From the NCBI RefSeq assembly GCF_025698545.1, contig NC_068569.1:4712001-4776000 (forward strand): 64,000 nt of DNA. The letters are read 5' to 3'. Shown one piece after another: positions 6,129 through 62,746 of the stretch. Positions within the stretch are counted from its first letter, which is position 1. Every line of letters starts with the position of its first letter. The DNA comes from Gossypium raimondii. Its lineage: Eukaryota > Streptophyta > Magnoliopsida > Malvales > Malvaceae. The translations under genes were made by a program, and so were the position numbers. The notes under the pieces are model-generated. The model saw only the letters and a program-made list of their open reading frames with translations. It was not told the DNA's origin and did not search any database.

Positions 6129-6133
6129 ATATT

Positions 6134-11187: not shown

Positions 11188-11205
11188 GAAATATAACCTT
11201 AAAAT

Positions 11206-11826
11206 TGTTAGTTCAAAACTCCGGTAAGGAAAATCTCGAACACACAATCGAAACTCGAACAGAAAAAGAAGAAATAGGACAGGCTCCAAGGCGTGTATCA
11301 AGCCACTATCTTTAAGGTTATATTCGCTTCACCTACCTTCTTGTGCAAATGAGTTCCAAGCAAATTAACCTCGAGGATACAATGAAGCCAATGACTATTT
11401 GCGTTTTGCACTGATGAGAATAATCCACTATGCACTGAGTAATGTATAACAAAAAACTCAATTTCTACAAAGGATTTCTGTAGTAATACTTTATAGAATA
11501 ATCTAATAATATTAGAAAATGAATGAAGGAAATAAAGAATATTAGAATTTGTTGATATCTTTCCAAATGAAATCTCATTCCTATTTATAGGAATTTTCAT
11601 GTCTCTTCATAGAGACATTTTCAATAGATATCTCTATGAATAAATAAATAATAATTATTCATTTAATTTTGTAACTATTTAAATAATATTTTATGAATAG
11701 TTATAATTCTTTTAAAAATCAAATGATATAACTTTTGACCAATGACCAAAAGATTTATTTTTGATTAATTACACCCATTCATTTATAATTCTTGGGATAC
11801 TATAAATATTTGAAAATATTCAAATA
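11206..11826 (-). repeat. 5' LTR of the Copia element
   Basis: The upstream repeat for the minus-strand element. A TATA box (CTATAAATAG, about 11580-11590) would drive transcription toward gag. Its outer end is mutated (TATTTGAATA instead of TGTTGGAACA), so it no longer begins with TG. The boundary is fixed by the ATATT target duplication at 11827-11831. Confidence 0.92.
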
Positions 11827-11831
11827 ATATT

Positions 11832-24582: not shown

Positions 24583-25989
24583 ATTATTGTCGAAACCATT
24601 TTTATTTAAACGGGGTCAACTTTTATTTAAAAACGAAAATGGAGTAGCCACCAATCTATTTTTATGAGGTGTGATTGGGTCACCTGGAAAAGTAGTTGTT
24701 TTTAATAAACGATTTGATCTTATTAAAAATAACGAATTTGATCCACGAAATTTAGAAAAATGGGTTCGGGAATCGGTTACGTACGAGGAAGGATTAACAC
24801 CCTCGTAACGCCCAAAATTGGTACCTAGTTGATTAATTAATGTCTTAATGTCGAATATTGAAAATTTGAAGAGATCAAAACAATTCCCCTTTTAAAATCC
24901 TTATTGAAATTTATTATTTTGAAAGCTAAATAAAATTTGGCCATCTTACTTTAATGAAGAAATCGAAACCCCGTAAGTTAGGGTACGATTCTTTGAAGTT
25001 CCGATGACAACTCACAAAGTTGTTTTTATTAAAAACTCATCTTGAGATAATAAAATGTCGTGTCCAGTGAGTTAAGATATAACATTTTGAATTTTCGAGA
25101 AAGCTTTTATTTGAAATTTGTGTGATTTTATTGAAAAAGGGATACTCGGCTATTTTGAATTTAACGAGAAAATTGAAGCCCAGTAAGTTAAGGCATAATC
25201 TTCTCGAAAATCTTAAATATCGAGTCTTGTTTTATAAACTTTTGAATAAAATGTAATGTGATTAAATGATAACATACTGACATAAAAAGGATAATTTGTA
25301 AATGAATCATACACTAATGAATAACAAATAATTAATAAACAAATATAAACATGCATGGCAACAATAATTTAATCATACATTATATAAATATCAATATCAA
25401 TATTTTAAAATTAAATGAATTAATAATCAATTTTAAAAGATATACTAAAGGAATCAATGGCAAAAGGAGAAATTATAATCAATAAATTATACGCTCAAAA
25501 TTTTAAAATAAACAATATATATGAGTTAAAACAAATAATATATGTACAATTTAATACAAATAATATCTACAATTTGAAATGAATTGGATAATTTACAATA
25601 AATAATATATAATAAATTTGAAATAATAAAACATATAAAATTTAAAATTTTGATGATAATTCTAGAATAATCATACGTGATAAATCCAAAATAATAGTAT
25701 ATAATAAGTTTAAAAATATTAATGATAAATTTAAAATAATGTTAACAATAAATTTAAAATAATAATATTGATAAATTACAAATAATAAAACATGATAAAT
25801 CTAAAATAATAATATACAATACACTTAGGGTGCGTTTGGTTTGCTGTATTAGATTAGAGGTGTAATAGTAAATCAACTGTTTGGTTGAATGTAATGGAAT
25901 AGAGGCGTAATAGTAATCTTGTGTTTGGTTGAATGGAATAGAGGTGTAATAGCATAGTGGAAAAAACTAAAATGACTAGAATACCCTTA

Positions 25990-27350
25990 GCATAAATTTG
26001 TTTTGGTAAATGATTATTGTTATTGTTATTTAAATTTTAATAAGATTATTATTATCAATAATAAATATTTCAATCATATTTAAACATAATTATTATTAAA
26101 TATATTTTAATTAAAATATATAATTTAATAAAATTCTTAATAATTAGCAGAAATTTGTTTTGGTAAATTATTATTGTTATTATTATTTAAATTTTAATAA
26201 GATTATTAATATCAATAATAAATAATTTAATCATATTTAAACATAATTATTATTAAATATATTATAATTAAAATATATAATTTAATAAAATTCTTAATAA
26301 TTAATATTCTTATATGAATTTACTCAAATCATAATATATGATACTGCAAAATATAAATTAACATAATTATTATTAAATATATTATAATTAAAATATATAA
26401 TTTAATAAAATTCTTAATAATTAATATTCTTATATGAATTTACTCAAATCATAATATATGATACTGCAAAATATAAATTAACATAATTATTATTAAATAT
26501 ATTATAATTAAAATATATAATTTAATAAAATTCTTAATAATTAATATTCTTGTATGAATTTACTCAAATCATAATATATGATACTATAAATGAAAATTTG
26601 AAATAATTAATATTAAATATATTTTAATTAAAATATATGATTTAATAAAATTTAAATTTTAATAAGATTATTAATATCAATAATAAATAATTTAATCATA
26701 TTTAAACATAATTATTATTAAATATATTATAATTAAAATATATAATTTAATAAAATTCTTAATAATTAATATTCTTATATGAATTTACTCAAATCATAAT
26801 ATATGATACTGCAAAATATAAATTAACATAATTATTATTAAATATATTATAATTAAAATATATAATTTAATAAAATTCTTAATAATTAATATTCTTATAT
26901 GAATTTACTCAAATCATAATATATGATACTATAAATGAAAATTTGAAATAATTAATATTAAATATATTTTAATTAAAATATATGATTTAATAAAATTTAA
27001 ATTTTAATAAGATTATTAATATCAATAATAAATAATTTAATCATATTTAAACATAATTATTATTAAATATATTATAATTAAAATATATAATTTAATAAAA
27101 TTCTTAATAATTAATATTCTTATATGAATTTACTCAAATCATAATATATGATACTGTAAAATATAAATTAACATAATTATTATTAAATATATTATAATTA
27201 AAATATATAATTTAATAAAATTCTTAATAATTAATATTCTTATATGAATTTACTCAAATCATAATATATGATACTATAAATGAAAATTTGAAATAATTAA
27301 TATTGAATATATTTTAATTAAAATATATGATTTAATAAAATTTAAAATAA
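25990..27350. repeat. Higher-order AT-rich tandem repeat inside the Harbinger element
   Basis: A 120-bp unit (ATACTGCAAAATATAAATTA as landmark) recurs at 26341 and 26461 with almost no change. A larger 345-bp unit recurs from 26641 to 26986 and ends at 27331 with the same TTTAATAAAATTTAAA landmark, so units of two sizes are nested. An older copy about 158 bp apart is seen at 25993 and 26151 (AAATTTGTTTTGGTAAAT). There is no coding content. Confidence 0.9.
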
Positions 27351-27709
27351 TTATAACTAATAAATTATATTTTATGAATTTGTATAATTTAAAATAATAA
27401 TTATTACATATAATTTAATAATTAATATTAAATTTCATAAAATTCTTGATAATAAATTTTCTTATATGAATTTATACAATTTAAAATAATTAATATTAAA
27501 TATAATTTAATTGTGATATATAATTTCATAAAATTCTTAATAATAAAATGTTCTTATATGAATTTACTAAAATCAATATATAACTTGAGAATTATATTCG
27601 CATAAACATAATTAACTTATATTAAGAAAAGGTTAGATGAAAATGAAATTGTACATCATAATCCATATGTTATATAGTTTTACAACATCAAAAGTTTGAA
27701 CATTGATAT

Positions 27710-33847: not shown

Positions 33848-36648
33848 GATATTAATTTATTTATTTAATTCACTTTATAAATGTAAATGAATTTAGAGAA
33901 CGTATAATAATTATTGTGAAAAAAAAATCAAGACTTATAATATTAATTCTTTTTAAGCCCAAAACAATGTGATATTATTTTTTTTTTACAAAACTTAAAT
34001 TTAGTAAAAACTGCTGAACTGAATCGAAATTACCAGTTTCGAATATCTCAAATTTTATTTTAAATCAAAAAAAATTCAAATTAATTTTTGTCCAAAAATT
34101 GAACCAAACTGAATACACCCTCATGATATCCTGGATCTCATTCGCTTTAGCTTGTTTTTGTCCCCTTCTTCTTTGAATGGTACAATAATGCGGTCATAAA
34201 CATTTTGCTTTTCTTTTCTTTCCTGTACAGAAATCTGCCTTAGACCCCGCTTCAAGTCACACCCAAAATTTGGGTTGTTTATGTACATTTTCTTTTTTCT
34301 TCATCAAGTTTATCTCAAAGTGGTATTCATGTTGTAATAAATGTCGATAATAGTGGTAGAACGATCGCAAAGCAATAAGAAAAATAATAAATAAGAACAT
34401 ACAGATTTTATATGAAAACCCTTTTGATGAAAAATTACAATTCACTAATATTAAAAAACGAATGATACAAAAATAGTTTTGACTACATCTATTTAAGAGT
34501 TAAAAACCCTATTCTAATCAAAGTCAAATAGAAGAGGAGTTTCTCCCCCACAAATCCTCTCATTTTACTGCCAACAAATAACAGAATTCAAGTCACATCA
34601 TCTCTAACAATACAAACACCTAAAACCTCCGTCAATTTAACCATATTCTCACCCTAATTTTTTTTTATTGTGGAATAAATATATAATACATGTTCCAACA
34701 AAACACTTGTAATGATTAGTCTTCTATTTAATCATATCATTACATAAAAAAAAATGCTCTCCCTATCTACACTTGTCTGCAACTATTTTGATGCTTTGTG
34801 TTTTTTTTTTAAGCACTTAATCAGTAGTTATTCGTTTCTTTTCGCCCTAAGCCACTTGAGCATGAAAAAATGCGCCCTAGCTTTTTCTTATTCTTGATTG
34901 AATTTGATGGTGTCACCTTTCTTTTGGACAACTTTGTAATATAATCAGATTCCACTTTTGTACTTAATCCCTTTCTCCCTTTATTAACCATAATCTTTGT
35001 TATCTTTAAAATAATACTATTCCCAATCGTAATTAGTGGCTAGCTGTACCACCATTTTTAAAAGGTCAATGCCAATGTACCACCAAAATACTACTGTATA
35101 TATACATCATGTTATACATCACATGATAAGCATGGATTTACTCCTAACACTATACACACTTATATAAAGACTGTAATATATATATATATCATATTAAAGA
35201 TCACATGAATAAGCATGGAATTACTCCTAACACTATATACACATATACACAGACTGTATCCAGATCATTTGTTTACAGGTGATATATGTCGCCATTGATG
35301 CACAAAAAATCTGCAGATTTTGGTGTAAAAAAGTTGCAGAATCATGATTATTTGTGAAAGATGCGTTGCTATCCCATTGAGATAATCAGTTTTAGGTAAC
35401 CAAATTCAAGCTACTATTATAGATTGGTAGCTTACCGAATTCAGTTAATCAGGACATTATTTTTCCTTGTACATCGTATATAACTAAGCATCTTGGCTAT
35501 TGTTGAAATTCTTTTTCCCTTTGCCACAAAATATAGGGCAGCTAAGAGTGATAAGCTGAATATATTAGTTCCCAATGTAGAAATTCATATCATCATCATC
35601 AACTGCTTTCTAAGGTTCTGATGCTTAAACTAATCACATCCCATTTTGGTGTCTTAAAGTAATTAGCAAGATAAGAAATGATGGTAAGATGGTACTAATG
35701 AAGTACTCATTAAAACAAAGAGGGGGAGGAACAGTATTATATCATATCTCATTATATCTTAGGAATTTTCTTTTATGACGTTAAATATATTTTATTAAAT
35801 TAGACAATGGTTAAAGTAGTGGATAGGGCACTTTGTACTGGGCCATATGCATTAATTCATCACTTCAATCAAAGGTTAGCGTCCAAACTAATCTATGAAA
35901 CTTAAGACTTTTGGCTCGGTGTTGGAATCTTTTGTCACAACACAATATGGAGGAAAAATGAATAAATTAAAAGGGTCGAACATGGGTTGCCTTTCGCTGC
36001 CTGCAGCCTACCCACTTGAATGGGATCTATGGCGTAGTTTCGCCAAGCTCCCACATATATTTGTAATATCCCTTTCTTTTATGCATATTTGGGGTGTGCC
36101 CTCTAGTTTTTTTATTTTATAAGTCAAAACATGATTTTTGATAGGTTAATTCCCAATACTGTAACCAAATAGAAAAGGAAGCTATATACAGAGATGTATG
36201 TGTTGCTTTCATGGCAGGTTCATGTGAAGTTAAAAAGATTTGACTTTATGGCATGGAGATCGAATCTCTTGGAAGGGAAATGACGTAGGAATTGTGCATT
36301 CTTCACCTCTTAGCATATTTCTTTATTCTTTTGTCACACAGATTTCTTAAATTTAGTTTTGGTTTGACATGTGTATAGGCATGAAGCACTGGATTCTTTA
36401 CTCATCACCTGTTGCTGCTTAGTCTCTATAACAATATGCTTTTATCTCGTTTTCTCTATTTATTTCTGACAATATATATAATGGTAGGCCACTTCAAGTT
36501 TATGTTTATTGTTTCGACACGTCTTCCATGCATCCAACACACAACCTGGAACCTTATAACTACAGTATTCTTAGTGATGCAGCTTGCCATTGCCTTGAGG
36601 CCCATTTCTTGGTCTAAAAAACAACTGCAATAGCAGAAGCCCATTATC
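33848..36648. other. Intergenic, AT-rich, between the solo LTR and duplication block 1
   Basis: No gene seen. It includes the local repeat at 35118-35259 and runs of T and A. Open frames at 34257-34445, 35895-36122 and 36412-36633 have no recognisable domain. The last part runs into the left limit of the segmental duplication at about 36649. Confidence 0.5.
35118..35259. repeat. Local direct repeat with an AT microsatellite
   Basis: Two copies of about 62-65 bp begin at 35118 and 35199. They share ATCACATGATAAGCATGGAT-like sequence and TTACTCCTAACACTATA, and are separated by an ATATATATAT run. Confidence 0.8.
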
Positions 36649-36899
36649 GAAGCCATTTTGGATCCCTAACGTAGCCCAAAATTTAGACCCAAATTTATCA
36701 CTAAAAAACTGGTTCATCAAGGCGTACTTTAGGGTCCCCCAGTCATACCCAAACCTAACCCTGAAAATACTTTTTAATTTTAGGCTGAAAAAAATGAGCC
36801 ACATATTCTACCCTACCTGCCGTTACGGTACACGCCATGTGTACTTCCCCTGTCGTGCGTGCCTGAGTTTTGTCAGACTATTTACTTTCTTCTGCTCTA

Positions 36900-37973
36900 G
36901 TAAGTTCATATTCTTTCTTTCGTATTTGTTACGGGTAGATTCTTCAACTACATATTCGAATTCAATCATTCTCTGTTGGGGGTGAGTCTTTATATGTTGC
37001 TTTCAGGTGCGAAAAGATTTGTTTATATCTCCGATGCTGATTTTGGCTTGGCAGGCTATTTACTTAAAAGGATACCTTTCTGTTTGCTTTATCTGTTTTG
37101 TATATCGTTATTGTCTGATTTTAATATTTGATTCTTAGTATTCTGCTCGAAAAGTGGTAGATTAGCATATACATTGAAAACATTTATTTTGACAAGTAAT
37201 GGAACATATGGCTCAAGAAGTCTTGTGGTTCACTAGCTGATTAGTATTCTCTTTTTCTTGTCCTGTTTGGCGCAGAGAGCTGCTCACCAAATTTCCATTC
37301 GGAGATGGGTTTTGTGATTCACTTGCTGTAATTTGTGCAAATATTCTGCACTTAACTTCCACATTGCTTCTTATTTCCTTATTGCTAATGGTAAGCTTGC
37401 TAAGTAATAACATGAAACTATCACCATCTAGTAGTTATGGTTCTTTACATCACTTAAAGATTTTGCGTTTCTTATTGCAGGACATTTTGAGGCATGGCTT
37501 CATTCATGGAACGCGCACTGTTGGAAGCATGATGTTACCTCCAGGCGTTATTTGTTCACCACTGGAATGGTAAATCCATGTGGTTTTAAATTTCTTTTTC
37601 TTCCGCATGTAATCTTCACTTGATCTGTTCCCTCACCTAAACCAGCAAAAAGGTTGGGTCCAATGATGCATCCCAGTTTATGGGGAGTTGGTGAGAATAG
37701 TCGGCATTTAATGCGTGATGAAATATGCCTAGATGTAATGGTTCGTGGAAAATTTTCTCACAAGTCATCGACTAAGATCACTTGTATCTCTGCAGGTTCT
37801 TCAACATGCAAAACCATTGAACCAGCTACCACTAGTTGGACCCTTGATCTCTCCTCCCGTTAATGCATATTGCTGTTGCCAAGGTTGCAGTGAGAGCAGC
37901 AACTTAAGTTTTCCCCCCAGGCATCGTAGCTGTCAATGGAATACAACAATTTAGCCCGCAAAGGTCAAGATAG
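36900..37973 (+). pseudogene. Truncated copy of the Rossmann-fold/SDR gene
   Basis: The copy of the gene at 51454-54428. A stub of the exon 1 donor region (CTCTAGTAAGTTCATATTC, about 36896) is followed by a deletion of exons 2-6. Exon 7 remains at 37007 (FVYISDADFGL-like) but is frameshifted at its end. Exon 8 (about 37276) has lost 18 bp, and its donor GT has become AT. Exons 9 (about 37482) and 10 (37797-37973) remain, with substitutions, an indel and a stop inside exon 10. The copied promoter region is kept at 36649-36850. No functional enzyme can be made. Confidence 0.92.
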
Positions 37974-38004
37974 ATCAGTTGAACTTTGAGTTTTGCGCTG
38001 TTTC

Positions 38005-41000
38005 CTATTGTTTCCATCGTGGCAAATATTGCTCGAGACACTCTTTCAGTTTTTGGAAAGTTACAGGCTTTGAAATAAACGAGTCCATGCCATTTGCAGA
38101 ACACTCATCAGCACTCTCTGACAATGCATTTGCTGTCATCTGCATTTATGCGTAACATATTTTTGTCAGCGTGTGCATAACATGAAGACTATCTGCTGGG
38201 ATAATATGAGCTTAAGCTTGATTATTAAGAGGCAGTTAAAGTGATGAACTCACTGCAATTATGGGGATACGATTTGGAGGTGTACAATCTGGTTGTAATG
38301 AATCAGAAGATGGTGAAGGCTTCTCTATCCCAGCCTTTGCTGCTTCATCCCAATTACCAGTTTCCTCAAAGGAACGAATCAATCTCGTTGTTTGAAGGCC
38401 ATCCATGACCGGCATGCACACATCCTGCAAGATTAAATTTGTAAGTGGTTGCTAATAAACTCCAAGTCTTTCAGAACTCGAATGCAGACGTAAAACTTGA
38501 GCAGATTTAAACCCTGTAGAAAGCAACTCTTATATGCAGTAGGGAAGGAAAGAGAGGAAGGAATTACCATCAAGACAAGATCATAACTATGGTACTGAAT
38601 TGCACGGACAGCTTCTACACCATTGCTCACAACATCTATTGTGTGGCCTAACTGCTTCATCATTGACCGCGTCACCATTACATTAATTTTATTATCTTCC
38701 ACCAGGAGGATCTTTGGCTTTGAGATAGAATTTGATGCTTCTCGGCTGCTGTTTAATGTGGACTGAAAACCGCTGTCAGATCTCCCCTGCCTCTCCGCTG
38801 GCAGCTGGGGCTCAGTTATCTTCTCTTTCACATCCACCTCTCTGCTTGTCTCTGAGCAACTTGACACATCTCTGGTAGAAACTTTGTTCTCAGCATTTAC
38901 AACATTGTGATGATGCTTGTCTCTGCAAATTGCTCTTTCATTATCGTGGTCTGGGCTGTGACTAAATGAACTTTCAGGCTCAGGTGATATCTCTAAAGCT
39001 TCAGCAACAGAACAAGCATCCTCAAATAAATCCATCTCCTTTGTTTGACCATTACTCGTGGGAAATGAATAACAATTCTCTGAGAACCCATTAATTTTAT
39101 GCGAATTTACATAGCCAATATTATGTGCTAATAAATTTTGGGTTCTGCTAGATCCATTAGAAGAAAATAGGGAACCCAAAGTACGTGGCTGGAATTGGAA
39201 AAAGCCAGCCGTTGCATCATCATCCGTAGCACCATGATCATCCATATCTGAGAGGTTGTCATCCGCGTCATCAGAATGATCACATGATAGAGAAACCTTA
39301 TAAGGTAAGATAAACGTAAATGTAGAACCGCAATGCACTTGGCTAGACACAGTAAGACGGCCGCCCATTAACTCAACCTGTAGCGAAGGCAAGGAATGTT
39401 AGGACTTAGTTTTGTACCAGCAAGAGTATCAATCAAATCTCTGCAAAAATCAACAACTTAAATCTTTCAAGTAAAATGAAAATATGCTTAAAATATATAG
39501 ATTTACAAACTTCCCAACTTTTCAATGATCTGGAATTTAGCATTGTTGAGAGTAATGAGCTGTAAGTAAACACTGCAGATATTTTGGCACGTGAAGAGCA
39601 ACAGTGTCTTAAAAAGGAACTAAAAGATGTTGAAAACTTGGAAAGAATCTATTTTTATTCTAATATCGAATTATATGCTTTTCTTAACTGCAAAACTAGG
39701 ATAGTTAGTTAAACTAGACCTACTGAGATTTATATCATAATTATCTGATCTGCTAAACTGTTTCTTTAAGCAGAAGCAAGAAGAGGGAAGGCAAATTGTA
39801 TCAATTGTGGCGGGGGAAAACATTATTGTTGATGGAAGGAAGAATTCACCAGCTGTTTACATATTGCGAGGCCAAGTCCTGTCCCACCGTACTTACGGGC
39901 ATGATCGGCACTGACTTGCATGTACTTCTTAAAAAGTGTGGGTAAAGCATTTTCTGTCACAGACAAAGGAGAATGTATCAAGTTCTAACAAAACCTCTGA
40001 TTTCTTGTGATAATGCAAATGATTAAAGAAAAGCATATTCATGTACCAGGTATGCCAATTCCAGTGTCATATACATCACAGCGAATCCAAACTGTTGTTT
40101 CAGGTAATTCTGCTTGCTCCTCGGTTACATCTATTGTTCCATTCGTTACTGGAGTACCACGTTCACTTTGTGAACGGTCTTGGCAAGAACCTTCGTGTTT
40201 CTTACCATGAAATCCTCTCTGGTCACTGCTAGTTTGAGACGTTGATGTACATGTCTCTTCTTTTGGTACATTAGTTGTGGATTGATTAGCAGTTGATCCA
40301 GCAGACCCATTCTGAGATCCTTCTTTTGCAAAAGGCGGCTCTGGGACTACATAAAGTTTTACTCCTACCTTTCCTTCATGTGTAAACTTGATAGCATTGC
40401 TGAAGAGAAAGAAAGGTTGTTCACATAACATGCAAGAAATGAAAGTAATGAATACTAATCATTCAGGAAGATTTTCTCAGCATAGTTTTCAGAACCATTC
40501 ATTTCCTAATGACAAAAAAAACTAAGTTCATAGTTGCTGAAACGCATGACATTTAATTCTCTAAACAATCAGTTACACACAATGTTTTCATGATAATCTA
40601 TAGGAAAGTTGAAACATGTGTTTTGATAGTTCAATACCTGATCAAGTTGGTGAGAATTTGTCGAATTCTTAGCACATCTCCTATGACCTGAAATCAATGC
40701 ATAAAGCTCCACAAAATGGGGGAGGATGAAAAAAGAATTTAATTTTTTTAAATAAAATACTCGAAGGAAATGTGTCACAAGACTCTTACCTCAATAGGAA
40801 CATCATCTGCTACATTTCCTTCCAACGTAAGAATCTTCCGCAATGATGCTGCAGCTGTCTGGAGAACATGCTTTACAACCTCTCTCGGTCGGAATTTTGT
40901 AGCCTCCAACTTCATGACACCTAAAGAAACAGAGAAAAGAAGATGCATTTAGAAATTCTGATATATGAGAAAAATAAAATTCCATGATGGAGGGCATCGA

Positions 41001-43129
41001 ATATTGAGATAAAAAAAAGTATGATGTGATTGTGAATCAGAAATACAACTTTCTAAACATGAACCGCAAATATCACACTTTAAGACCAGATCTCTCACAC
41101 TTGTTGCTATATATGGTACTACACTGTTCAACTTGTGATTCATATGTGATGAGCAAAATAATGAGATTTAAGAAATTAATATACACAATTGAATATTTAA
41201 AAATAACACGAGAATGAGATTTTCATGCAATTTTGGAGTAAAATCCAAACCTGATTCAACCTTGGAAAGATCAAGGATGTCATTTATAAGTTGAAGGACC
41301 AAATCTCCTGAAGATATCATAACATCTAATAATTGTCTTTGCTCTCGGTCAAGTTTCGTTGTGGCCAAGATCTCTGCCATGCTAACAACCCCAGATAGAG
41401 GAGATCTTATCTCATGGGACATGGTTGCCAGCATCTGTTTTGCACGCATTGTCTCCTCTAGAGAAAGTGTAAAAAGAAGGCAAAGCAGAGTTAAAGGTAT
41501 AGCAAAAGAGTAATTCACAAATATTCAGTTGTCACTTAGTTGATGAACCTGTTATGTGTATGGTTCTGTTGAGTTCTGTTTCCTTTGCCTTTTGTACCGC
41601 AATCTCCTCTCGTATCTTTATCATCCTTTCCCTTTTCCGTACCTATACAATCAGAAACATAAATCCGCATTTTTCTCCATTTCAATTAATAGCTTAAACA
41701 ACCAATATGAACAAACAGAATGTACCTGATCTGTTATATCGATGCCCATGTAATTTATACCAATAGTCTCCCCTGCCTTGCTAAAAACAGGTTCCACATA
41801 TATCAAGAACGTCTTCGACCCAAATAGTTCTGTCTCAAATGTGATTTCTCTTTTTGCAGGCAATCCTTTATCCATCACTTCTTTTTTAAAATCCTGAGAC
41901 TCCTTAACACCAGATCCAGTAAAAATTTCCACATCTCTTTTTCCTAAAATGTCCTGAAATGAGAACACGTAATAGTTCTTATGCCACTCACTGTAAATAA
42001 AAGGGACTGCAGAAGGTGAGGAAGTTACAATCAAAAACTATATTACGACAACAATCGTGCTCACAACCAATACTTCAACAAAAGATTATCAAACCTTGAA
42101 TAAGAACTTCTGGTGCAATAAATTACCTCCTCTTGTAAACTTGGAAAATGGTTATAAATAAAGCGATACCGCAGCTCTTTATCCTGGTTGATCAAACAAC
42201 AAGTTTCATTAGTTGAAAGATTATACTATGTCTCCTCATGCTTCAGCTAATTTTGGAAACTTTAATTGATGATATCTGATCTACTGAAAAGATGAACTAT
42301 TTAACAGCTTTTAAATTGACATTACTCAAAAGCTTAACGCAATGAATTATGTGCATGGAATAAAGTTTAATTGTGAGGCAGCTTCTTATTTCACTACATT
42401 TTTCTTGATTACCTGATGCCCAAACACAACGGGTGCAGTTTGAAGTACAAAATGTAAGAAATTATCTGCTCTTTTAAGAACTTGGGACAACTCTTCTACT
42501 GGTGAAGACTGTTTTTCCAGATTTTTTATGCTTTCCTGCAACTTTTCCATGAGTTGCTGCTCTCTCTGCATGCTGGCTTCCAACATTTTCTCCAAGTGCG
42601 CGGCTCGCTGTTTCCAGTATATGACAGTATCATACTCGGCATCAATTTCAACTCTTTTACTTGGAACCATAATATTATATTTCCTCCGAGGAACTTCTTG
42701 CCATATATCATAAATGCCATCCAGTATGGAAATCGGGCGTTTATCTCCTCCATACCTTTCCTCGAAACGATGTTCCTCCAATATCTCTAATTTCTTGAGC
42801 TCAGATTCCTGTCTTTGTCTGCTTAAATTGTCAAGTTCTTCTCTAAGAAGACGAACAGCATTCGCTTGCTTATATTCCCAGTGTTTTACAAGGTATGCTA
42901 ACTGAGACGAGCCCTTGTCTGTATAATTAGTTAGCTCTATAAGATGTTGGAAATCAACTATGGTTGGCTCCCCCACAATTGTTACCTCTTCCAACATATC
43001 TTGGTCACCTCTTGGGTTTTCTACATTAAACTGCTTCCCAGCTTCATGTTCAATATCTTCAGGCCACATTGAAGAAAGGACTTCGACGTCCATGTCTTCA
43101 ATTGGATCGGTCTCCATCTTACAAACCAT
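38005..43129 (-). CDS. AHK5: Cytosolic hybrid histidine kinase AHK5 (CKI2 type), copy A
   Basis: A His-Asp phosphorelay sensor that in Arabidopsis acts in ROS, ethylene, ABA and stomatal signalling. Twelve exons: 42413-43129, 42127-42183, 41726-41953, 41549-41642, 41251-41457, 40790-40920, 40638-40687, 40047-40399, 39850-39953, 38568-39377, 38254-38424 and 38005-38139, giving 1,018 residues (Arabidopsis about 920). The order is coiled coils (about 75-215), a PAS-type domain (about 230-340), DHp with phospho-accepting His380 in [15 protein letters not shown], an ATPase domain ([26 protein letters not shown]), an acidic linker, and a receiver (LLVEDNKIN, phospho-accepting Asp918 in [15 protein letters not shown]). 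There is no transmembrane segment or CHASE domain, as expected for AHK5. The normal TGA after EQYLP is CGA, adding RWKQ before a TAG that lies in the deletion junction. The 5' leader probably contains an intron (acceptor GTTGCAG at about 43247). Confidence 0.96.
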
Positions 43130-44248
43130 GGAAATCAGTTAATTACAACCTGTTTGAACTGTTGAGAACATAAATTAACATCAATAGATCACCAATCTAT
43201 GCTTCTCGTATGTCTCTATAAATCATCTTTTAATCAGAGCAGATCCTGCAACATAAAGTATCGAGCTTGAGCCTTCAACATAAAGTCAATAAACCATTGA
43301 TTCTAAGATTTGTCCAGCTTTACTACTTCATTTCAAGTCAAATTTTATTTGAAATCGAATTAAATGACAAAGATGTGTGGCTTTCGGAACAGAAAATTGC
43401 AGAAAACCATGGCAACCAGAGAAAGAAAATAATAGATATGTTGACTGAGGTGGAAAAACAGCGATTGGAGACGAAATAAACGGTAGAAATCTCTTTATTC
43501 GACGGAAATATAAATTCCAAAAGTTGATAGAATTTTATATATTAAAAAGATGAAAAGAAAAGCTTTGAAAGTTTCAAGGGAAAGGAATCAGAGATTCAAA
43601 GTCATGTTGGGGAGCAGAAGCTAAATTTCGCTAAACATTTTGATCATTGATCGTTAGCAACAGCTCACATTCTAAACCAGAAGTAAAAGGAAAGTCATCG
43701 GAATTCAAGATAATGAACCTGAAAAAAGAGCAAGATTCATTAAACAGAACCACCGAGGATAAGTTTATCCAATAGATACGAGTGAACAAACACACAACGT
43801 GTTTTCCTTTTCCTTTTTCTTAAATAAAAGCGAATTAGGCGATCAATTAAGATTAAGCAAACACAAACAAACCACATTAGTAAGCTAACCTTTGAGATTG
43901 AATCACATCCAGTCCTGAAAATAACAAAGCCTTGACGGAGAAGAAGAACAAGCAAAAGGTTGACGGCAAATCCAAAACTCAAAATATTTTTAACTGTAGA
44001 TCTGAGGAACACCTTTTCTGTCCAGATATTCAGTCAACAGCCTTCAAATGCTAATGAATAACTCTTTTTTAATGCAAAAAAAGAAGAAGAAAAAACGAAA
44101 GGGAAGAAGAAAGGCTGAAGCGGGCAAGTTATAAGAGGAGAGAGAGAGAGGAGAGCATGTGACTGAAAAGAGAAACAAAAATGTAGGAGAAAAGAAGCCG
44201 TGTGCGATCAGAGGTCAAAAACAATAGATAATTCTCTGAATCTTGCCT
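43130..44248 (-). promoter_or_regulatory. 5' leader and proximal promoter of AHK5 copy A
   Basis: About 1.1 kb duplicated with high similarity in copy B (62747-63990). A possible 5'-UTR intron ends at about 43247 (TTATGTTGCAG then GATCTGCTC), and a donor-like AAAG|GTTAGC lies at about 43889. A GA/CT microsatellite (GAGAGAGAGAGGAGAG, about 44140-44155) near the outer end may mark the transcription start region. There is no clear TATA box. Extents are inferred. Confidence 0.5.
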
Positions 44249-50443: not shown

Positions 50444-51088
50444 TTATAGTAAAGTAAGGCTTTCCTTGAAAAGAAAAAGGAACAAAGCTTTGCTGGTATA
50501 GTTAAAATATTAACGACTGGCACAATTTTATATCTAAAAGATAAGCGATGAGTTATTTGCAACTTAAATCCCTGTGTATTTTTTATAAGTCCTTTCACCT
50601 TTTATGTTTACTAATTTAGTTTTATAGTTATTCTCAATTTAGAAATAACTTAATAATATTATCTACATTAGGTTCTATATGTTTTAATTACTTGTGAAAA
50701 ATATTTTTTTTATTTTTATTTATAAAATTCTAGTAACATAAAGATATTAATCTCTATATATTAATACTTAACGTATAACTTTAACTAATTAATAGATAGA
50801 TATTATTAGATTTAAATGTTTTACTAATAAATATTAAAGAACTCAAGAAGTAAATTTATTAACTGAAAAAGAATTTAGTCGTGTTTCGAGATAAGAATTC
50901 AATCTGCAAATTCACTTGCATGATACTGTAGCGTGTATTGAATTGTGTGAACTTAAGATTTAATTGTATAAAAAATATTAAAAACAAAACTACATTTATT
51001 TTCAGATATCAAATTAAAATTTAAGTATATTAAAAGAAACTAAATTTATTTTTAAATATCATATTAAAAACTATATTTTAAATAAATT
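50444..51088. other. Spacer left of duplication block 2
   Basis: AT-rich, no gene seen. It ends where similarity to block 1 starts. Confidence 0.5.
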
Positions 51089-51453
51089 GAAGCCATTTTG
51101 GATCCCTAACGTTACGTAGCCCAATAATTAGACCCAAATTTATCACTACAAAACTGGTTCATGTAGGCGAGCTTTTGGACCCACCTACTAATACCCAAGC
51201 CTAGCCCTGAAATACTCTTTAATTATAGGCTAAAAATGAGCCACATATACTACCCTACCTGTCGTTACGGTTACACGCCATGTGTACTTCCCCTGTCGTG
51301 CGTGCCCGAGTTTTATTAGAGACTTTTGCCCTTTTTCTCATTGATGCTGAAAAAAGCAACCTCCAATTTGTGAAGCAAGGTTTCAGAAAAATTCAAATTC
51401 ACAAAAGAGAACGATCGAAAATACCACTAGTATTTTGAAATAAGCTCCAATCC

Positions 51454-54428
51454 ATGGCTACACGGTTGATCTATTCCAGACTCTCACTCTCTAGACTCTC
51501 GTAAGTTCATATTCTTTCTTCTGCTTCTTTGATTCGTATTTGTTACGGTTAGATTCTTCAGCTACATATTCGAATTCGACCATTCATGAACCGTAAGAAC
51601 CTATACACGGTTCTTTATTTTCTTTTCCATTTGTCGGAATCTGAATTCCTCTGATTGGACTATAATGTTAGCATAGGTTTTGTTCTGTGGAGATGAAAAA
51701 GTTGAAAATTTTGTTCTTTATTGTTGCCGAATGGATTAAGAATTTTTATTTTTTTATTTGCACGGCTTCTCCTTTGCAATAAAACAGTGCAATGGGTGGA
51801 CCCAAGAATGGAAGATTTCTTTCAACAGAGTCTAACAAGATTGACGAGCCTTTTAAAGTTGAAGAAGCAGAGACCGTGAATGTACCTCCTCCTCCTTCTG
51901 AGAAGGTGCTAGTTAGAACTTTTGGACCTATATATTGTCATTTTATTAATGTCGGGTTCTTTTAATTTATTATTGTGCATGCATTACTTTCGACTTATTG
52001 TTATATTGTTCATTTCAGCTGCTTGTGTTGGGTGGAAATGGATTTGTTGGCTCCCATATCTGTAGGGAAGCTTTGAACCGTGGTCTGGCTGTTGCAAGCC
52101 TCAGCAGGTATTCTAATTTTATTTCCAGGATTTCTTTATAGAACATTATGTTTATTTCTCATGTGGGCTCGGTTTAGTAATGAAGCTCATGAACTAATGG
52201 AGTTTGCAACTATGTTATCTTGCATGATGAGAGTACATAAGAAATTTCAAATTTCTGATTGTTATACAATGTTTTTCAGAATAAAATTTTCAAATATCAT
52301 GGAAAGTGACCAGTCCTTTTAGCTTTAGGGGCATCTAATTTTGTACTCTTTAGCTGGAAATATTCATCTGGACGCTTTCTGCTGTTAATTGCATCTGTAT
52401 TACAAAGATTGCTTATTTACTATCCCCCATGATATGCTTCCTGTTCTTGTTACAAATATGCTCTGCTCATTACGCTAATGCTTTCTAGTACAATGATCAA
52501 AATTTAGAGCCTAGGTAATGATACCCTACATCATTTGTATGTGAAGATACCTTATATTTTTCTGCTGCTTTCCATTTTCGTCAATTACTGGTATTTCTTC
52601 AACCCCTTAATTTGGTTGCTTCTTTCTATTAGGTCTGGCGGATCATCTTTACAGGACTCTTGGGCTAAGAATGTGACATGGCATAAAGGTTTCTTTCCTT
52701 TATTTGCTTTGCTAGATGTTATTGGTTACACGTTGTGACATAGCTAACATGTTACTTCCAATCAGGGAACCTTCTTTCTTCTGATTCGTGGAAGGAAGCT
52801 CTGGATGGAGTTACATCTGTTGTATGTAGTCCCTTAATTCTGCAGATGACCTAACATCCAAAAATCAAATCTGAGCTAAATTTACTTGCACAGCTATACA
52901 CAATGGTTCCATATTTTAATTATGGCATTCATATTACAATTTTCCTGGTTACTTGCAATTCAATTTGAATCTTACTCTCTTCTTTGACATTCTCTTTTTT
53001 TCCTGCTAATTAAGTTTAATTTTTTAGATCTCTTGCATTGGCGGTTTTGGATCTAATTCATATATGTATAAGATTAATGGGACTGCAAACATCAATGCTA
53101 TCAGAGCTGCTGGAGATAAAGGTATATAGATTATTGATCTGTGATGCGTCTCCTTTTGTGACTAACTTCACCCCTTCTGGGAAAAAGAAAAGGGAAAGGG
53201 AGAAAAAATTAACGAAAACTTCAAAATGTGTCAGTGTTTTGTTTCTGTGTGCTTTTCATTTTTATTTCTGAGCGATTGCCACCAGTAACTTCTTTTTGGA
53301 CTTTTTACCTTGTTTCTGTTTGGGTTGACTTTTTATATTTTGCTTTCAGGTGTGAAAAGATTTGTTTATATCTCCGCTGCTGATTTTGGCTTGGCAAACT
53401 ATTTACTTAAAGGATATTACGAGGGGAAGGTACACTTTTCTCTTTGCTCTCGGTTCCTGATGACCATTTGCTCAGGTGTCTATTTTGCATAACATTATTG
53501 TGTGATTTTATTCATAGCATTCTGCTCAAAAAGTGGTAGATTAGGATGTACATTGAAAACTTTTATTTTGATAACTGATGGAATATGTGGCTCAAGAAGT
53601 CTTGTGGACCGCCTGCTGATGGAAAATTCTCTTTTTCTTGTCCTGTTTGGTGCAGAGAGCTGCTGAGACAGAGTTACTCACGAAATTTCCGTACGGAGGT
53701 GGGCTTTGTGATTCACTTGCTGTAATTTGTGCAATATTCTGCACCTAACTTCCACATTGCTTCTTATTTCCTCTTTTATTGCTAATAGTAAGCTCTGATT
53801 GTTTTGGTTTGGCTGGTAGCTTGCTAGTAATAACATGAAACTATCATCATCTAGTAGTTATGGTCCTTTACCCTTTAAAGATTTTGCATTTTCTATTGCA
53901 GGAGTGATTTTGAGGCCTGGCTTCATTCATGGAACTCGCACTGTTGGAAGTATGAAGTTACCTCTAGGCGTTATTGGTTCACCACTGGAAATGGTAAATC
54001 CATGTGGTTTTAAATTTTACTTGCCTTCTGAATGTAGTATTCATTTGATCTGTCCCCTGACCTAAACCAGCAAAATGAATGGGTCCAATGATGCATCCTA
54101 GTTTGTAGGGAGTAGGTGAGAGTAATCGGGCATTTGATGCGTGATGAAGTGTGCCTAGGTTAACTGCAACGATCCATGTTGGTGCATAAGCTTCGTGGAA
54201 ATTTGTGTCTGAAGTTATCAACTAATAAGATCACTTGTATCACTGCAGGTTCTTCAACATGCAAAACCATTGAACCAGCTACCACTAGTTGGACCCTTGT
54301 TCACTCCTCCCGTTAATGTTACGGCAGTTGCCAAGGTTGCAGTGAGAGCAGCAACTGATCCAGTTTTCCCCCCAGGCATCGTAGATGTCTATGGAATACA
54401 ACGATTTAGCCAGCAAATGTCAAGATAG
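51454..54428 (+). CDS. NAD(P)-binding Rossmann-fold protein (atypical SDR, At5g10730/At5g15910 type)
   Basis: Ten exons: 51454-51500, 51788-51905, 52019-52107, 52633-52688, 52766-52821, 53028-53121, 53350-53429, 53656-53698, 53902-53993 and 54249-54428, giving 284 residues; all junctions are GT-AG and in frame. The Arg/Ser-rich start (MATRLIYSRLSLSRLS) looks like a mitochondrial targeting sequence. The nucleotide-binding glycine motif GGNGFVGSH comes straight after LLVL (about residue 60). Further on are ISCIGGFGSNSYMYKINGTA, the FVYISAADFGL strand and YYEGKRAAE, which carries the YxxxK-type pair. The C-terminus is PPGIVDVYGIQRFSQQMSR. Plant members are related to the complex I subunit NDUFA9 group; the substrate is unknown. 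The upstream region (51089-51310) is duplicated in block 1. Confidence 0.95.
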
Positions 54429-55721: not shown

Positions 55722-57155
55722 ATGAATCATAATCGGCAATCCAACGATGGGAAGCATGATGATGACTCTGCTCTCTCCGATTTCCTTGCTTCTCTCATGG
55801 ATTACACTCCCACTGTACTCGTTTTTCTTTTTTTCTTCAAAAGAAGGGAATTCTTATAATTACGTTTCTGAACTTTTTTTTTTTCAAAATTCATTGCAGA
55901 TACCTGACGAACTGGTGGAACATTACTTAGCCAAGAGTGGTTTTCAATGTCCCGATGTTCGATTGTAGGTTTTTCCCTCTCCTTTTTTTTTTTTTACTTC
56001 CCATTTCCTTTTATCCTCTGTTTAGCTGCCCAACCGGAAATTTTCAAGAAAGTATTTTCTTTTATTTATAAAAATTTCAGTTAATCTTTACAGCTTTTAG
56101 TGGTCTTCATGATAAAGAGTCCTAATTTCAATCTTGCTTTCCTCGAATAGGGGTTCTTATCGTTCGTTAAGATGGTTCTAGGGTTCCGGGTAATGGAAAA
56201 TTTAATCCTTCAATTTAATTATCGGTTGCCTTCCGAGTCACCCTACAAACTTCAATTACTGTACTTTGTGACGAAAAATGAGACAGATGCAAACCACTAA
56301 TTTCATGTAGTCCGCAAAATCCAAAAGAAAAGAAAGAAGCTTTATACGGTTGCTATATTGCTTGCGGTTCTACTGTTAAAAGAAAAAGAGTGGTGTGTTG
56401 GGCATGATTTTTCCATTAATTCTAGCTTTATATTTTGCTTTTGCAGAATAAGGCTTGTAGCTGTTGCTACTCAAAAGTTCGTTGCAGAGGTTGCAAACGA
56501 TGCACTTCAGTATGGCACCAAATACTTTTTAACTTTTATTCCTCTGTGTGTTTTTTCCATGAAGGAACAAAATAGTGTTGCATAACTTTTATTCCCGTGT
56601 GTGTTTTTTCCATGAAGCTTTTCTTATGTGCAATGGAAATGTTTATAGAAAAGAGTAAATCTTTTGGGTAGTATCAGTTTGGATTCGCTCGTCTCAAAGT
56701 TAGTTTGATTATGACAATTTTCGATCCTAATAATGTAGGCATTGCAAGGCAAGACAGGCTGCAGTAGTGAAGGACAAAAGGGAGAAGCAGCAAAAGGTGA
56801 TATCCTTTGATGCTTGTTTTTAAAGTTTCCGAATTCCTTTCTCGGTATGTCTGACCCTGTTGTTGCAACAGGATAAACGCCTAATCTTGACAATGGACGA
56901 CCTCTCCAAGTCATTGCGTGAGGTAGGCATTCCCGTGACTTGTTCAGATGTTTTAAAAAAAAATGGTCATGCCTTTTTGTTTTTTGTCTTCAACGACTAA
57001 AGAGTATTAATTTCTCTCATCATTTTCGATTGATATCCAGAAATTATTTGATTTTGTGTTCTTTGAATGAGCAGTATGGAGTGAATGTGAAGCAGCAGGA
57101 GTATTTTGCCGATAGCCCTTCAACAGGAATAGACCCTGCTACTAGAGATGAATAG
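55722..57155 (+). CDS. TAF10: Transcription initiation factor TFIID subunit 10 (TAF10)
   Basis: A nuclear subunit of TFIID (and SAGA in other eukaryotes) that contacts other TAFs through a histone fold. Six exons: 55722-55814, 55900-55964, 56447-56509, 56739-56796, 56872-56922 and 57075-57155, giving 136 residues, the normal plant length. It starts MNHNRQSNDGKHDDDSALSD. The conserved core runs DFLASLMDYTPTIPDELVEH, YLAKSGFQCPDVRLIRLVAV, ATQKFVAEVANDALQHCKAR and LTMDDLSKSLREYGVNVKQQ. Its 3' end faces AHK5 copy B with about 350 bp between stop codons. It is the only copy in the window; the block 1 counterpart has been deleted. Confidence 0.97.
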
Positions 57156-57504
57156 TTGGAGTTAGAATTATGTTATTACTTTGTTGATGCTGCTGGAAAC
57201 CTCCTTTATGGCCCTTTATTACTTGATTGCTCAGCTTAATAGACTCGATTAACATTTACAGGGTTGTGGCTAATAATATTTCCAGTCAATGTGTATGTGA
57301 AAATTACATTTTTTTTCCCGTTAATTGGTGGTCTAAAGAGAAGTTTTTGTTACCTCATTCCCGAAAAATAAGTGACATTCAACTATACAATCTATATTAA
57401 TGAAATGCTAATGGCTTAGATGAAGATGATATATTGACAAAACTTTCCTAACATGCTGCCATTTTTCTGTACATATCGCAATAATTTACACAGAGGTGTC
57501 TCCA

Positions 57505-60500
57505 TCAAGGCAAATATTGCTCGAGACACTCTTTCAGTTTTTGGAAAGTTACAGGCTTTGAAACAAACGAGTCCATGCCGTTTGCAAAACACTCTTCAGC
57601 ACTCTCCGACAATGCATTTGCAGTCATCTGCATTTATACGTAACATATTTTTATCAGTGTGCATAACATGAAGACTATCGAGACAGTTAAAGTGATGAAC
57701 TCACCGCAATTATGGGGATATGCTTTGGAGGTGTACAATCTGGTTGTAATGAATCAGAAGATGGTGAAGGTCTCTCTATCCCAGCCTTTGCTGCTGCATC
57801 CCAATTACCAGTTTCCTCAAAGGAACGAATCAATCTTGTAGCTTGAAGGCCATCCATGACCGGCATGCACACATCCTGCAAGATAGAGTTCGTAAATGGT
57901 TGCTAATAAGCTCTTAAAGTCAATAATGCAGCTTTCAGAACTAGAATGCAGACGTGATATTACACCTTTCAGACCATAAAACTTGAGCAGATTTAAACCT
58001 TATCGAAAGCAACTCTTATATGCGGTAGGGAAGGAAAGAGAGGTAGGAATTGAAAGATCCTGAAGGAAGTACCATTAGGACAAGATCATAACTACGGCAC
58101 TGAATGGCACGGACAGCTTGGACACCATTGTTCACAACATCTATTGTGTGGCCTAACTGCTTCATCATTGACTGCGTCACCAATACATTAATTTTATTAT
58201 CTTCCACCAGGAGGATTTTAGGCTTTGAGATAGAATTTGATACTTCTTGGCTGGTATTTAATGTGGACTGAGAACCGCTGTCAGATCTCCCCTGCCTCTC
58301 AGCTGGTAGCTGAGGCTCACTTATCTTCACTTTCACATCCACCTCTGTGCTTGTCTCTGAGTAAGTTGACACATCTATGGAAGAAACTTTGTTCTCTGCG
58401 TTTACATCATTGTGATGACGCCTGCCTCTGCAAATTGCACTTTCACTATCGTGGTCTGGGCTGTGACTAAATGAACATTCAGGCTCAGATGATATCTCTA
58501 AAGCTTCAGCCACAGAACAAGCATCCTCAACTAAATCCATCTCCTTTGCTTGACCATTACTCGTGGGAAATGAACAATAATTCTCTGAGAATCCGTTAAT
58601 TTTATGTGAATTTACATGGCCCATATTATGTGCTAATAATTTTTGGGTTCTGCTAGATCCATTAGAAGAAAATAGAGAACCCAAAGTACGTGGCTGGAAT
58701 TGGAAAAAGCCATTCGTTGCATCATCATCTGAGTCACCATGATCATCCATATCTGAGAGGTCATCCGGGTCATCAGAGTCATCAGAATGATCACATGATA
58801 GAGAAACCTTGTAAGGTAGGATAAACGTAAATGTAGAACCACAATGCACTCGGCTAGACACCGTAAGACGGCCACCCATTAACTCAACCTGCAGAGAAGG
58901 CATGGAATGTTAGGACTTAGGTTTTGTACCGGTAAGAGTATCAATCAAATCTCTGCAAATATCAACAACTTAAATATTTCAAGTAAAGGAAAATGTGCAT
59001 AGATAAATATAGAATTACAAAATTCCCAGCTTTTCAACGATCAGGAATTTACCAGTGTTGATAGTAATGAGCTGTAAGTAAATACTTCAGATATATTGGC
59101 ATGTGCAAACCAACAGTGTCTTAAAAAGGAACTAGAAGGTGCTGAAGACTCTGAAACAATCTATTTATATTCTAATATCAAATTATATGCTTTTCTTAAC
59201 TGCAAAACTAGGATATTTAGTTAAACTAGACCTACTGAGATTTACATCATAATTATCTGATCTGCTAAACTGGTTCTTTAAGCAGAAGCAAGAAGAGGGA
59301 AGGCAACTGTATCAATTGTGGAGAAAAAACATTATTGTTGATGGAAGGAAGAATTCACCAGCTGTTTACATATTGCGAGGCCCAGTCCTGTCCCACCATA
59401 CTTTCGGGCATGATCGGCACTGACTTGCATGTACTTCTTAAAAAGTGTGGGCAAAGCATTTTCTGTCACAGAGACAGGAGAATGTATCAAGTTCTAACAA
59501 AACCTCTGATTTTTTGCGATAATGTAAATGATTAAAGACGAGCATACTCATGTACCAGGTATTCCAATCCCAGTATCATATACATCACAGCGAATCCAAA
59601 CTGTTGTTTCAGGTAACTCTGCTTGCTCCTCAGTTACATCTATTTTTCCATTCATTACTGGAGTACTGGGTTCACTTTGAGAACGGTTTTGGCAAGAACC
59701 TTCGTGTTTCTTACCATGAAATCCTCTCTGATCACTGCTAGTTTGAGACGTTGATGTACATGTCTCTTCTTTTGGTACATTAGTTGTGGTTTGATTAGCA
59801 GTTGATCCATCAGACCCGTGCTGAGATCCTTCTTTTGCAAAAGGGGGCTCTGGTACTACATAAAGTTTTACTCCTACCTTCCCTTCATGTGTAAACTTGA
59901 TCGCATTGCTGAAGAAAAAGAAAGGTTGTTCACATAACATGCAAGAAATTAAAGTAATGAGAAGTAATAATTCAGGAAGATCTTCTCAGCATAATTGTTA
60001 GAATCCTTCTTTTCCAAATGACAAAAAGAACTAAGCACATGTCATCTAATTCTCTAAACAATCAGCTACAAACAATGTTTTCATGATAATCTATAGGAAA
60101 CCTCAAACATAAATCCTGACTTCTCATAGTTCAATACCTGATTAAGTTGGTGAGAATTTGTCGAATTCTTAGCACATCTCCTATGACCTGAAATCAATAT
60201 ATAAAAAGCTCCACAAAATGGGGGAGGATGAAAAAAGGAACTTTAATTTTTAAATTAAAAACTTGAAGGAAATGTGTCGTATGACTCTTACCTCAATAGG
60301 AACATCATCTGCCACATTTCCTTCCAAGGTAAGAATCTTTTGCAATGATGCTGCAGCTGTCTGGAGAACATGCTTTACAACCTCTCTTGGTCGGAATTTT
60401 GTAGCCTCCAACTTCATGACACCTAAAGAAATAGCGAAAAGAAGATACATTTAGAAATTCCAATATATGAGAATAAAAACCTGCCATGATTGAGAGCATC

Positions 60501-62746
60501 GAATTTTGAGACAAAAAAGCATGATGTGATTGTGAATAAGAAATAGAACTTTCTAAACATGCACTACAAAGATCACATTTTAAGGCCAGATCTCTCAACC
60601 TTGTTGCTATATATAACTAAAACACTGTTCAAGTTCTGATTCTTATGTAACAGTAGTATTATTATCATTCTCAACAGTTGTGGTGACCAAAATAATGAGA
60701 TCTATGAAATTAATATACACAGTTGAAAATTGAAAAATAACAGGTTTGAGCTTTTCATGCAATTTTGGAGTAAAATCCAGACCTGATTCAACCTTGGAAA
60801 GATCAAGGATGTCATTTATAAGTTGAAGGACCAAATCTCCTGAAGATAGCATGACATTTAACAATTGTCTTTGCTCTCGGTCAAGTTTCGTTGTGGCCAA
60901 GATCTCTGCCATGCTAACAACCCCAGATAGAGGAGATCTTATCTCGTGAGACATGGTTGCCAGCATCTGTTTTGCACGCATTGTCTCCTCTAGAGAAAGT
61001 GTAAAAAGAAGGCAAAGAAGAGTTAATTCAGCGCTTTAAAAGGTATAGCAAAAGAGAAATTCACAAATATTCAGTTGTCACTGAGTTGATGAACCTGTTA
61101 TGTGTATGGTTCTGTTGAGTTCTGTTTCCTTTGCCTTTTGTACCGCAATCTCCTCTCGTATCTTTATCATCCTTTCCCTTTTCCGTACCTATACAATCAG
61201 AAACATAAATACGCATTTTTCTCCATTTCAATTAATAGCTTAAACAACCAATATGAACAAACAGAATGTACCTGATCTGTTATATCCATGCCCATGTAAT
61301 TTATACCAATAGTCTCCCCTGCCTTGCTAAAAACAGGTTCCACATATATCAAGAATGTCTTCGACCCAAATAGTTCTGTCTCAAATGTGATTTCTCTTTT
61401 TGCAGGCAATCCTTTATCCATCACTTCTTTTTTAAAATCCTGAGACTCCTTAACACCAGATCCAGTAAAAATTTCCACATCTGTTTTTCCTAAAATGTCC
61501 TGAATAAAAGGGACTTACTGTGAATAAAAGGGACTGCAGAAGGTGAGGAAGTTACAATCAAAAACTATATTACAACAACAATCGTGCTCACAACCAATAC
61601 TTCAACAAAAGATTATCAAACCTTGAATAAGAACTTCTGGTGCAATAAATTACCTCCTCTTGTAAACTTGGAAAATGGTTATAAATAAAGCGATACCGCA
61701 GCTCTTTATCCTGGAAGTCGACCAAACAGGAAGTTTCATTAGTTGAAAGATTATACTGTCTCTTCGTACTTCAGCTAATTTTGGAAGTTGTACTCGTTGG
61801 ATATCTAGTTATAGGCAAAAGATTCGAGTAGTAGCTCAAATCAGCATATGAGGATTCTTGGCATAAATGATTAGTTTGATGATATCTCATCTGCTGAAAA
61901 GATAACCTATTTAACAACTTTTAAATTGACATTACTCACAAGTTCAAAGCAATGAATTAAGAATGTCCATGGAATAAAGTTTAATTGTGAGGCAGCTTCT
62001 TATATCACTAAATTTCTCTTGATTACCTGATGGCCGAACACAACCGGTGCAGTTTGAAGGACAAAATGTAAGAAGTTATCTGCTCTTTTAAGAATTTGGG
62101 ACAACTCTTCTACTGGTGAGGACTGTTTTTCCAGATTTTTTATGCTTTCCTGCAACTTTTCCTTAAGTAGCTGCTCTCTCTGCATGCTTGCTTCCAACAT
62201 TTTCTCCAAGTGCATGGCTCGCTGTTTCCAGTATATGACAGTATCATACTCGGCATCAATTTCAACTCTTTTACTTGGAACTACAACATTTTTTTTCCTC
62301 CGAGGAACTTCTTGCCAAATATCATAAATGCCATCCAGTATGGAAATCGAGCGTTTATCTCCTCCATACCTTTCCTCCTCGAAACGATGTTCCTCCAATA
62401 TCTCTAATTTCTTGAGCTCAGATTCCTGCCTTTGCCTGCTTAGATTGTCAAGTTCTTCTCTAAGAAGACGAACCGCATTCGCTTGCTTATATTCCCAGTG
62501 TTTTACAAGGTATGCTAACTGAGACGAGCCCTTGTCTGTATAATTAGTTAGCTCTATAAGATGTTGGAAATCAACTATAGTTGGCTCCCCCACAATTGTT
62601 ACCTCCTCCAACATATCTTGGTCACCTCTTGGCTTTTCTACATTAAACTGCTTCCCAGCTTCGTGCTCAATATCTTCAGGCCACATCGAACAAAGGACTT
62701 CGACGTTCATGTCTTCAGTTGGGTCGGTCTCCATCTCACAAATCAT
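57505..62746 (-). CDS. AHK5: Cytosolic hybrid histidine kinase AHK5 (CKI2 type), copy B
   Basis: Twelve exons matching copy A one to one: 62027-62746, 61654-61710, 61272-61499, 61095-61188, 60783-60989, 60292-60422, 60138-60187, 59556-59908, 59359-59462, 58073-58888, 57705-57875 and 57505-57627, giving 1,017 residues in frame. The start chosen is [17 protein letters not shown] at 62746, because copy A and Arabidopsis AHK5 begin at this Met; an in-frame ATG lies three codons upstream. The phospho-accepting His is residue 381 and the receiver Asp is residue 921. Small differences from copy A include one extra Glu in EEERYGG and a slightly longer acidic linker. The protein ends EQYLP with TGA, as expected for the ancestral form. 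Intron 2 has a different acceptor sequence from copy A. Confidence 0.96.

Follow-up and report, generated by a model that had tools for sequence, protein, structure and literature searches.

Two AHK5 histidine kinase genes stand in tandem in the cotton (Gossypium raimondii) DNA analysed here, and loss of a neighbouring gene after the tandem duplication appears to have rewritten the 3' end of one of them, giving it a new C-terminus, a new stop codon and probably a 3'UTR made of the reverse strand of a pseudogene. In the history that we favour, with a probability of roughly 0.7, a tandem duplication in the cotton lineage doubled a block of three genes, SDR, TAF10 and AHK5, and a deletion of ~3.0 kb in copy A would have taken TAF10 together with both intergenic spacers and fused the 3' ends of SDR and AHK5 (the direction of this change is what we infer). 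Before or after the deletion, CGA replaced the TGA stop of AHK5-A, and translation now continues through four more codons and ends at a TAG within the reversed 3'UTR of SDR. The SDR copy of the A block has decayed, and AHK5-A has stayed intact under purifying selection. To judge from published gene coordinates, AHK5-A transcripts are most likely polyadenylated ~0.8 kb downstream, on the strand opposite to the decayed SDR gene. The junction itself is real and well resolved, and it is ordinary in kind.

Self-comparison of the window (the whole 64-kb stretch of DNA that was analysed) revealed the tandem pair of AHK5 genes, copy A and copy B, and the following matching segments on the A and B sides: 36646-36877 and 51086-51320, 36895-36971 and 51496-51585, 36972-38012 and 53315-54467, 38009-42277 and 57497-61806, and 42266-44245 and 61876-63989. 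The copy B block is complete, with SDR-B and TAF10 on the plus strand and AHK5-B on the minus strand; in the copy A block a wrecked SDR abuts AHK5-A directly. TAF10 was identified by PF03540 (TFIID 23-30 kDa subunit domain, E 3.7e-40), which was covered over the whole profile length, and SDR-B by matches to PF13460, PF01370 and two weaker Pfam families. In both kinase copies HisKA, HATPase_c and receiver domains (PF00512, PF02518 and PF00072) scored above the cut-off in one chain. Rfam and tRNA scans over the window gave no matches. The coordinates of the features are collected in Table 1.

Table 1. Positions of genes, gene remnants and candidate signals in the window
Feature	Position	Strand	Remarks
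AHK5 copy A coding region	38005..43129	-	12 coding exons, 1018 aa, ends EQYLPRWKQ; three Pfam domains
AHK5 copy B coding region	57505..62746	-	12 exons, 1017 aa, ends EQYLP
SDR-B	51454..54428	+	10 exons, 284 aa, intact; NAD(P)-binding Rossmann-fold protein
TAF10	55722..57155	+	6 exons, 136 aa; within the window only beside copy B
SDR-A pseudogene remnant	36646..38012	+	without start codon and exons 2-6; exon 7 truncated
Deletion junction	38009..38012		position uncertain by 0-4 bp; 54468-57496 of copy B (3,029 bp) without counterpart in A
Present stop TAG	38005..38007	-	SDR-register sequence; first base (38007) unlike SDR-B
Former stop	38017..38019	-	TGA in copy B, CGA (Arg) in copy A
Putative 3'UTR of AHK5-A	37151..38004	-	antisense to SDR-A; would end between 37151 and 37240; from published coordinates
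AATAAA, candidate poly(A) signal	37183..37188	-	sole AATAAA in the first 1,000 nt past the stop codon of copy A
Candidate 5'UTR intron of AHK5-A	43246..43889	-	644 nt exactly; AAG|GTTAGC ... TTGCAG|GATCTG

When the sequences are compared without gaps, positions 37970-38012 of copy A track SDR-B 54425-54467 with scattered mismatches, and from 38009 onward copy A tracks AHK5-B from 57497. The two registers overlap at 38009-38012, leaving a T-rich overlap of 0-4 bp at the joint. The interval of copy B that is absent from A corresponds to TAF10 plus the downstream spacers of both flanking genes. When 54440-57520 was compared with the whole window by sensitive BLASTN, no further TAF10 turned up. 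Non-self matches within the TAF10 gene were limited to an internal 35-nt repeat and to stretches no longer than 37 nt (E 0.23 or weaker), and the remaining matches of the query were mostly low-identity AT-rich spacer, in addition to the two junction arms. The two-register junction and the lack of a second TAF10 in the window support the proposal of the initial annotation that a deletion removed TAF10 and brought together the 3' ends of two convergent genes, and a TAF10-removing deletion is the best reading of the junction. The same annotation had seen reversed SDR 3'UTR (approximately 54430-54460) beyond the TAG of copy A, had counted 31 bp between the end of the SDR-A stop (37973) and 38005, and had concluded that copy A lost its original AHK5 3'UTR. 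The SDR register described above agrees with the first of these points, the distance was found to be correct, and only 4-8 nt of the original 3'UTR remain. What did not hold is the role assigned to GGAAACA as a motif shared at the joint. The motif is GGAAACA in SDR-B and GGAGACA in AHK5-B, and copy A reads GGAAACA-ATA-GGAAACA. Because both motif copies survive in A, GGAAACA was ruled out as a recombining or annealing repeat.

At the 3' end of the kinase the minus strand reads GAG CAA TAT TTG in both copies, continued by CCT TGA in copy B (stop 57507..57505) and by CCA CGA TGG AAA CAA TAG in copy A (stop 38007..38005). This codon reading confirmed that copy B ends EQYLP-TGA and that copy A has CGA followed by RWKQ and TAG. 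The further claim that the present stop was produced by the junction stands in part. The TAG does sit in the SDR-derived arm, but the TGA was replaced by CGA within sequence that is still in the AHK5 register, and the TAG needs a base that SDR-B lacks: at plus-strand position 38007 copy A has A and SDR-B has T, and the SDR-B base would give AAG, not TAG. Since the changed bases 38019-38020 are flanked on both sides by AHK5-register matches, loss of the old stop is due to a substitution close to the junction but separate from it. Loss of the TGA without the deletion, in front of a 3'UTR like that of copy B, would add 19 residues before the next stop; with the deletion the tail is four residues long.

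Among solved chains the closest to the copy A receiver is that of Arabidopsis AHK5/CKI2 (AT5G10720; 4euk, Histidine kinase 5, E 3.8e-65), the next best having an E value of 2.2e-22. The crystallised chain ends QYLH, one residue past QYL, and lacks an RWKQ-like tail, unlike copy A. Taking the end of the 4euk chain as the native C-terminus, RWKQ is most likely a derived addition, because 4euk ends QYLH where copy B ends QYLP.

The direction of the change could be the opposite if TAF10 entered copy B by insertion between its SDR and AHK5 genes and the abutting arrangement of copy A is ancestral. In Arabidopsis, AHK5 (AT5G10720) and a Rossmann-fold dehydrogenase (AT5G10730), which we take to be the counterpart of the SDR in the window, are consecutive and TAF10 is at AT4G31720, and a TAF10-less order may thus exist elsewhere. 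We nevertheless regard an insertion as improbable. Copy A is derived at the stop, where Arabidopsis ends like copy B, and its SDR is a wreck; the interval 54468-57496 includes the downstream spacers of both genes, not TAF10 alone, and no clear target-site duplication flanking it was seen by eye. It is for these reasons (degradation of the A side, the extent of the interval and the target-site result) that a deletion is preferred over an insertion. The Arabidopsis order could also have arisen in another way. The nearby cotton gene Gorai.009G066900 is listed as WRKY11/AT4G31550, which argues that the cotton region also resembles Arabidopsis chromosome 4 near TAF10. The AHK5 region and the TAF10 region of Arabidopsis are presumably duplicates of each other, and alternating gene loss after genome duplication would explain the Arabidopsis order.

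The gene carrying the deletion at its 3' end has been published under another name. In PMC10102465, GrHK5.1 is given as a protein of 1017 aa encoded by 12 exons (chromosome 9, 4714872-4720202, length 3143, reverse strand), and GrHK5.2 as one of 1018 aa encoded by 13 exons (4694607-4701762, length 4444, reverse strand). AHK5-A corresponds to the gene of GrHK5.2 (XP_012444154.1, LOC105768647, B456_009G066000 of Gossypium raimondii), with agreement in length, strand, order with respect to GrHK5.1 and four protein properties. The pI, instability index, aliphatic index and GRAVY of copy B are 5.11, 53.34, 80.95 and -0.496, and the tabulated values for GrHK5.1 are 5.11, 53.35, 80.95 and -0.496. Copy A with RWKQ gave 5.16, 51.96, 80.31 and -0.518, identical to the values printed for GrHK5.2 (PMC10102465), whereas copy A without RWKQ gave 5.11, 51.40, 80.63 and -0.507, which do not match. 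Computed and published molecular weights are 1.3 Da apart in both copies. Because the properties of GrHK5.2 fit only when RWKQ is included, the RWKQ ending must already be present in the RefSeq protein. The agreement of both copies with the published pair also places the window on G. raimondii chromosome 9 or in a near-identical sequence. Expression of GrHK5.2 was reported to rise under salt and to fall under cold (PMC10102465); in the passages that deal with GrHK5.2, that paper makes no mention of its C-terminus, of a deletion, of the loss of TAF10 or of a long 3'UTR. GrHK5.1 and GrHK5.2 are absent from the five segmental duplicated pairs as given in the excerpt of PMC10102465; here they form a tandem pair (38005-43129 and 57505-62746). 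No apparent precedent was present among the listed matches from the literature on duplicate genes and stop codons.

In both AHK5-A and AHK5-B the reading frame is open, and GT and AG are present at all introns. The proteins are 92.8% identical over 1014 aligned codons, with Ks 0.135 (0.104-0.164), Ka 0.033 and Ka/Ks 0.243 (bootstrap 0.175-0.336). Exons of the two copies differ in length by multiples of three only; in the introns 8.8% of aligned sites differ, and 25 of the 30 gap events are not multiples of three. Where one copy of a pair is free of constraint, a Ka/Ks of roughly 0.5 is expected. The observed value is hard to reach unless both copies are constrained, which suggests that AHK5-A is under purifying selection. 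Slower substitution rates would give an older age for copies A and B. At a rate of 6.56e-9, as quoted in PMC10102465, the Ks corresponds to ~10 million years, a figure that is not put forward as a date.

These values bear on the question whether AHK5-A, too, is turning into a pseudogene, in which case the tail and the missing 3'UTR would be early signs of decay and the transcripts would be poorly terminated. The lost stop and the deletion of the homologous poly(A) region would fit with such a course, as would the higher Ka in the last 165 codons (0.048) than in the first 600 (0.021). Incipient decay is nonetheless unlikely in view of an open frame of 1018 codons with every splice site kept, a Ka/Ks of 0.24 whose upper bound of 0.34 is under the value expected for one free copy, and the expression response of GrHK5.2 reported in PMC10102465. 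An assembly error, by which copy A would have been collapsed or misjoined in a genome that in truth has TAF10 and the TGA, is very improbable: tandem repeats are prone to misassembly, but these copies are well apart (8.8% of aligned intron sites, Ks 0.135), substitutions against copy B are found on both junction arms, and the published protein, to judge from the tabulated properties, has the composition with RWKQ, although it may come from the same assembly and would then not be independent.

The position at which the AHK5-A transcript ends can be estimated from the coordinates in PMC10102465. For copy B the published span (5331) exceeds the coding span (5242) by 89, and the published length (3143) exceeds the coding sequence (3054) also by 89. 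As both excesses are 89 nt, the internal intron lengths agree exactly, and the column headed CDS apparently lists the lengths of transcripts. The distance between the low-coordinate ends of GrHK5.1 and GrHK5.2 as published is 20,265, and that between the stops in the window is 19,500. Assuming that the spacing in the published assembly equals that in the window, the AHK5-A gene would thus extend 765-854 nt past its stop. The end is given as a range (37151-37240) that allows for every split of the 89 UTR nt of copy B between its two ends. For AATAAA in the stretch after the copy A stop, the single occurrence compares with 1.34 expected by shuffling, and at least one was present in 76% of shuffles; its presence, which is not above chance, was therefore dropped as evidence in itself. 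The motif is also found in an SDR-B intron and is probably pre-existing. The suggestion of the initial annotation that copy A had probably lost its poly(A) signal has to be modified accordingly: the AATAAA at hand does not exceed chance, but the published coordinates imply an extension reaching the vicinity of this antisense motif, and expression of the gene is reported. On the basis of these coordinates copy A probably gained a new 3'UTR and did not lose polyadenylation.

The published length of 4444 for GrHK5.2 requires one further intron of 644 nt. On the 5' side three GT-AG pairs of exactly 644 nt were found, compared with a mean of 1.36 per length, and one of them (43889..43246) ends at a site homologous to an acceptor of copy B; its donor is also found in copy B. 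With the acceptor fixed, a GT donor was available for 9 of 101 lengths (600 to 700), and the candidate donor GTTAGC is not of a common type. Taken together, there is moderate support for this candidate 5'UTR intron. An extra intron inside the 3'UTR was rejected, as the 3' extension has 0 GT-AG pairs of exactly 644 nt. The value 4444 is also listed for GrHK2.2 in the same table (PMC10102465), so a copying slip is possible; this would affect the absence of a 3' intron and not the reach of 765-854 nt. Upstream of AHK5-B a 40-bp unit is present twice (63197-63276, 97% match), and copy A has one unit; the repeat lies where copy B corresponds to the candidate 5'UTR intron of AHK5-A.

SDR-A, whose reverse strand would supply the new 3'UTR, has disabling lesions by comparison with the intact SDR-B (Table 1), including a 14-bp gap in exon 8, and is thus classified as a pseudogene. 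Its segment 36646-36971 contains ~230 bp homologous to sequence upstream of SDR-B, together with a portion of intron 1, with the start codon lost. It could be transcribed without coding. Identity to SDR-B is 92.1% in exon 9 and 93.2% in exon 10 (gaps left out). Between the putative AHK5-A 3'UTR and the SDR-B mRNA there are perfect complementary runs of 52, 30, 23, 18 and 15 nt, and 45 perfect 21-mers at either end of the range of 3'UTR ends. Provided that this 3'UTR holds, the two mRNAs share the extended complementarity that characterizes trans-NATs. As in the plant trans-natural antisense transcripts described in PMC4463847, long stretches of an mRNA are complementary to the mRNA of another gene; unlike in those, the antisense part here would be a 3'UTR that arose by deletion fusion with a pseudogene. 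It is conceivable, if doubtful, that the deletion made a regulator of the dead SDR-A: the AHK5-A mRNA with ~0.8 kb of antisense SDR might act as a trans-antisense RNA (and possible siRNA source) against SDR-B ~16 kb away, and would couple the output of SDR-B to the way in which AHK5-A responds to salt and cold. An active antisense relation would offer a concrete path from gene loss to trans-regulation; if it is inactive, the case is one of ordinary stop loss plus deletion.

Elsewhere in the window two direct repeats of ~640 bp (6114-6739 and 11187-11828), which are 91% identical and 5 kb apart, resemble retrotransposon LTRs, and 25987-27608 is an AT-rich array of tandem repeats whose nested periods are close to 120, 225 and 345 bp.
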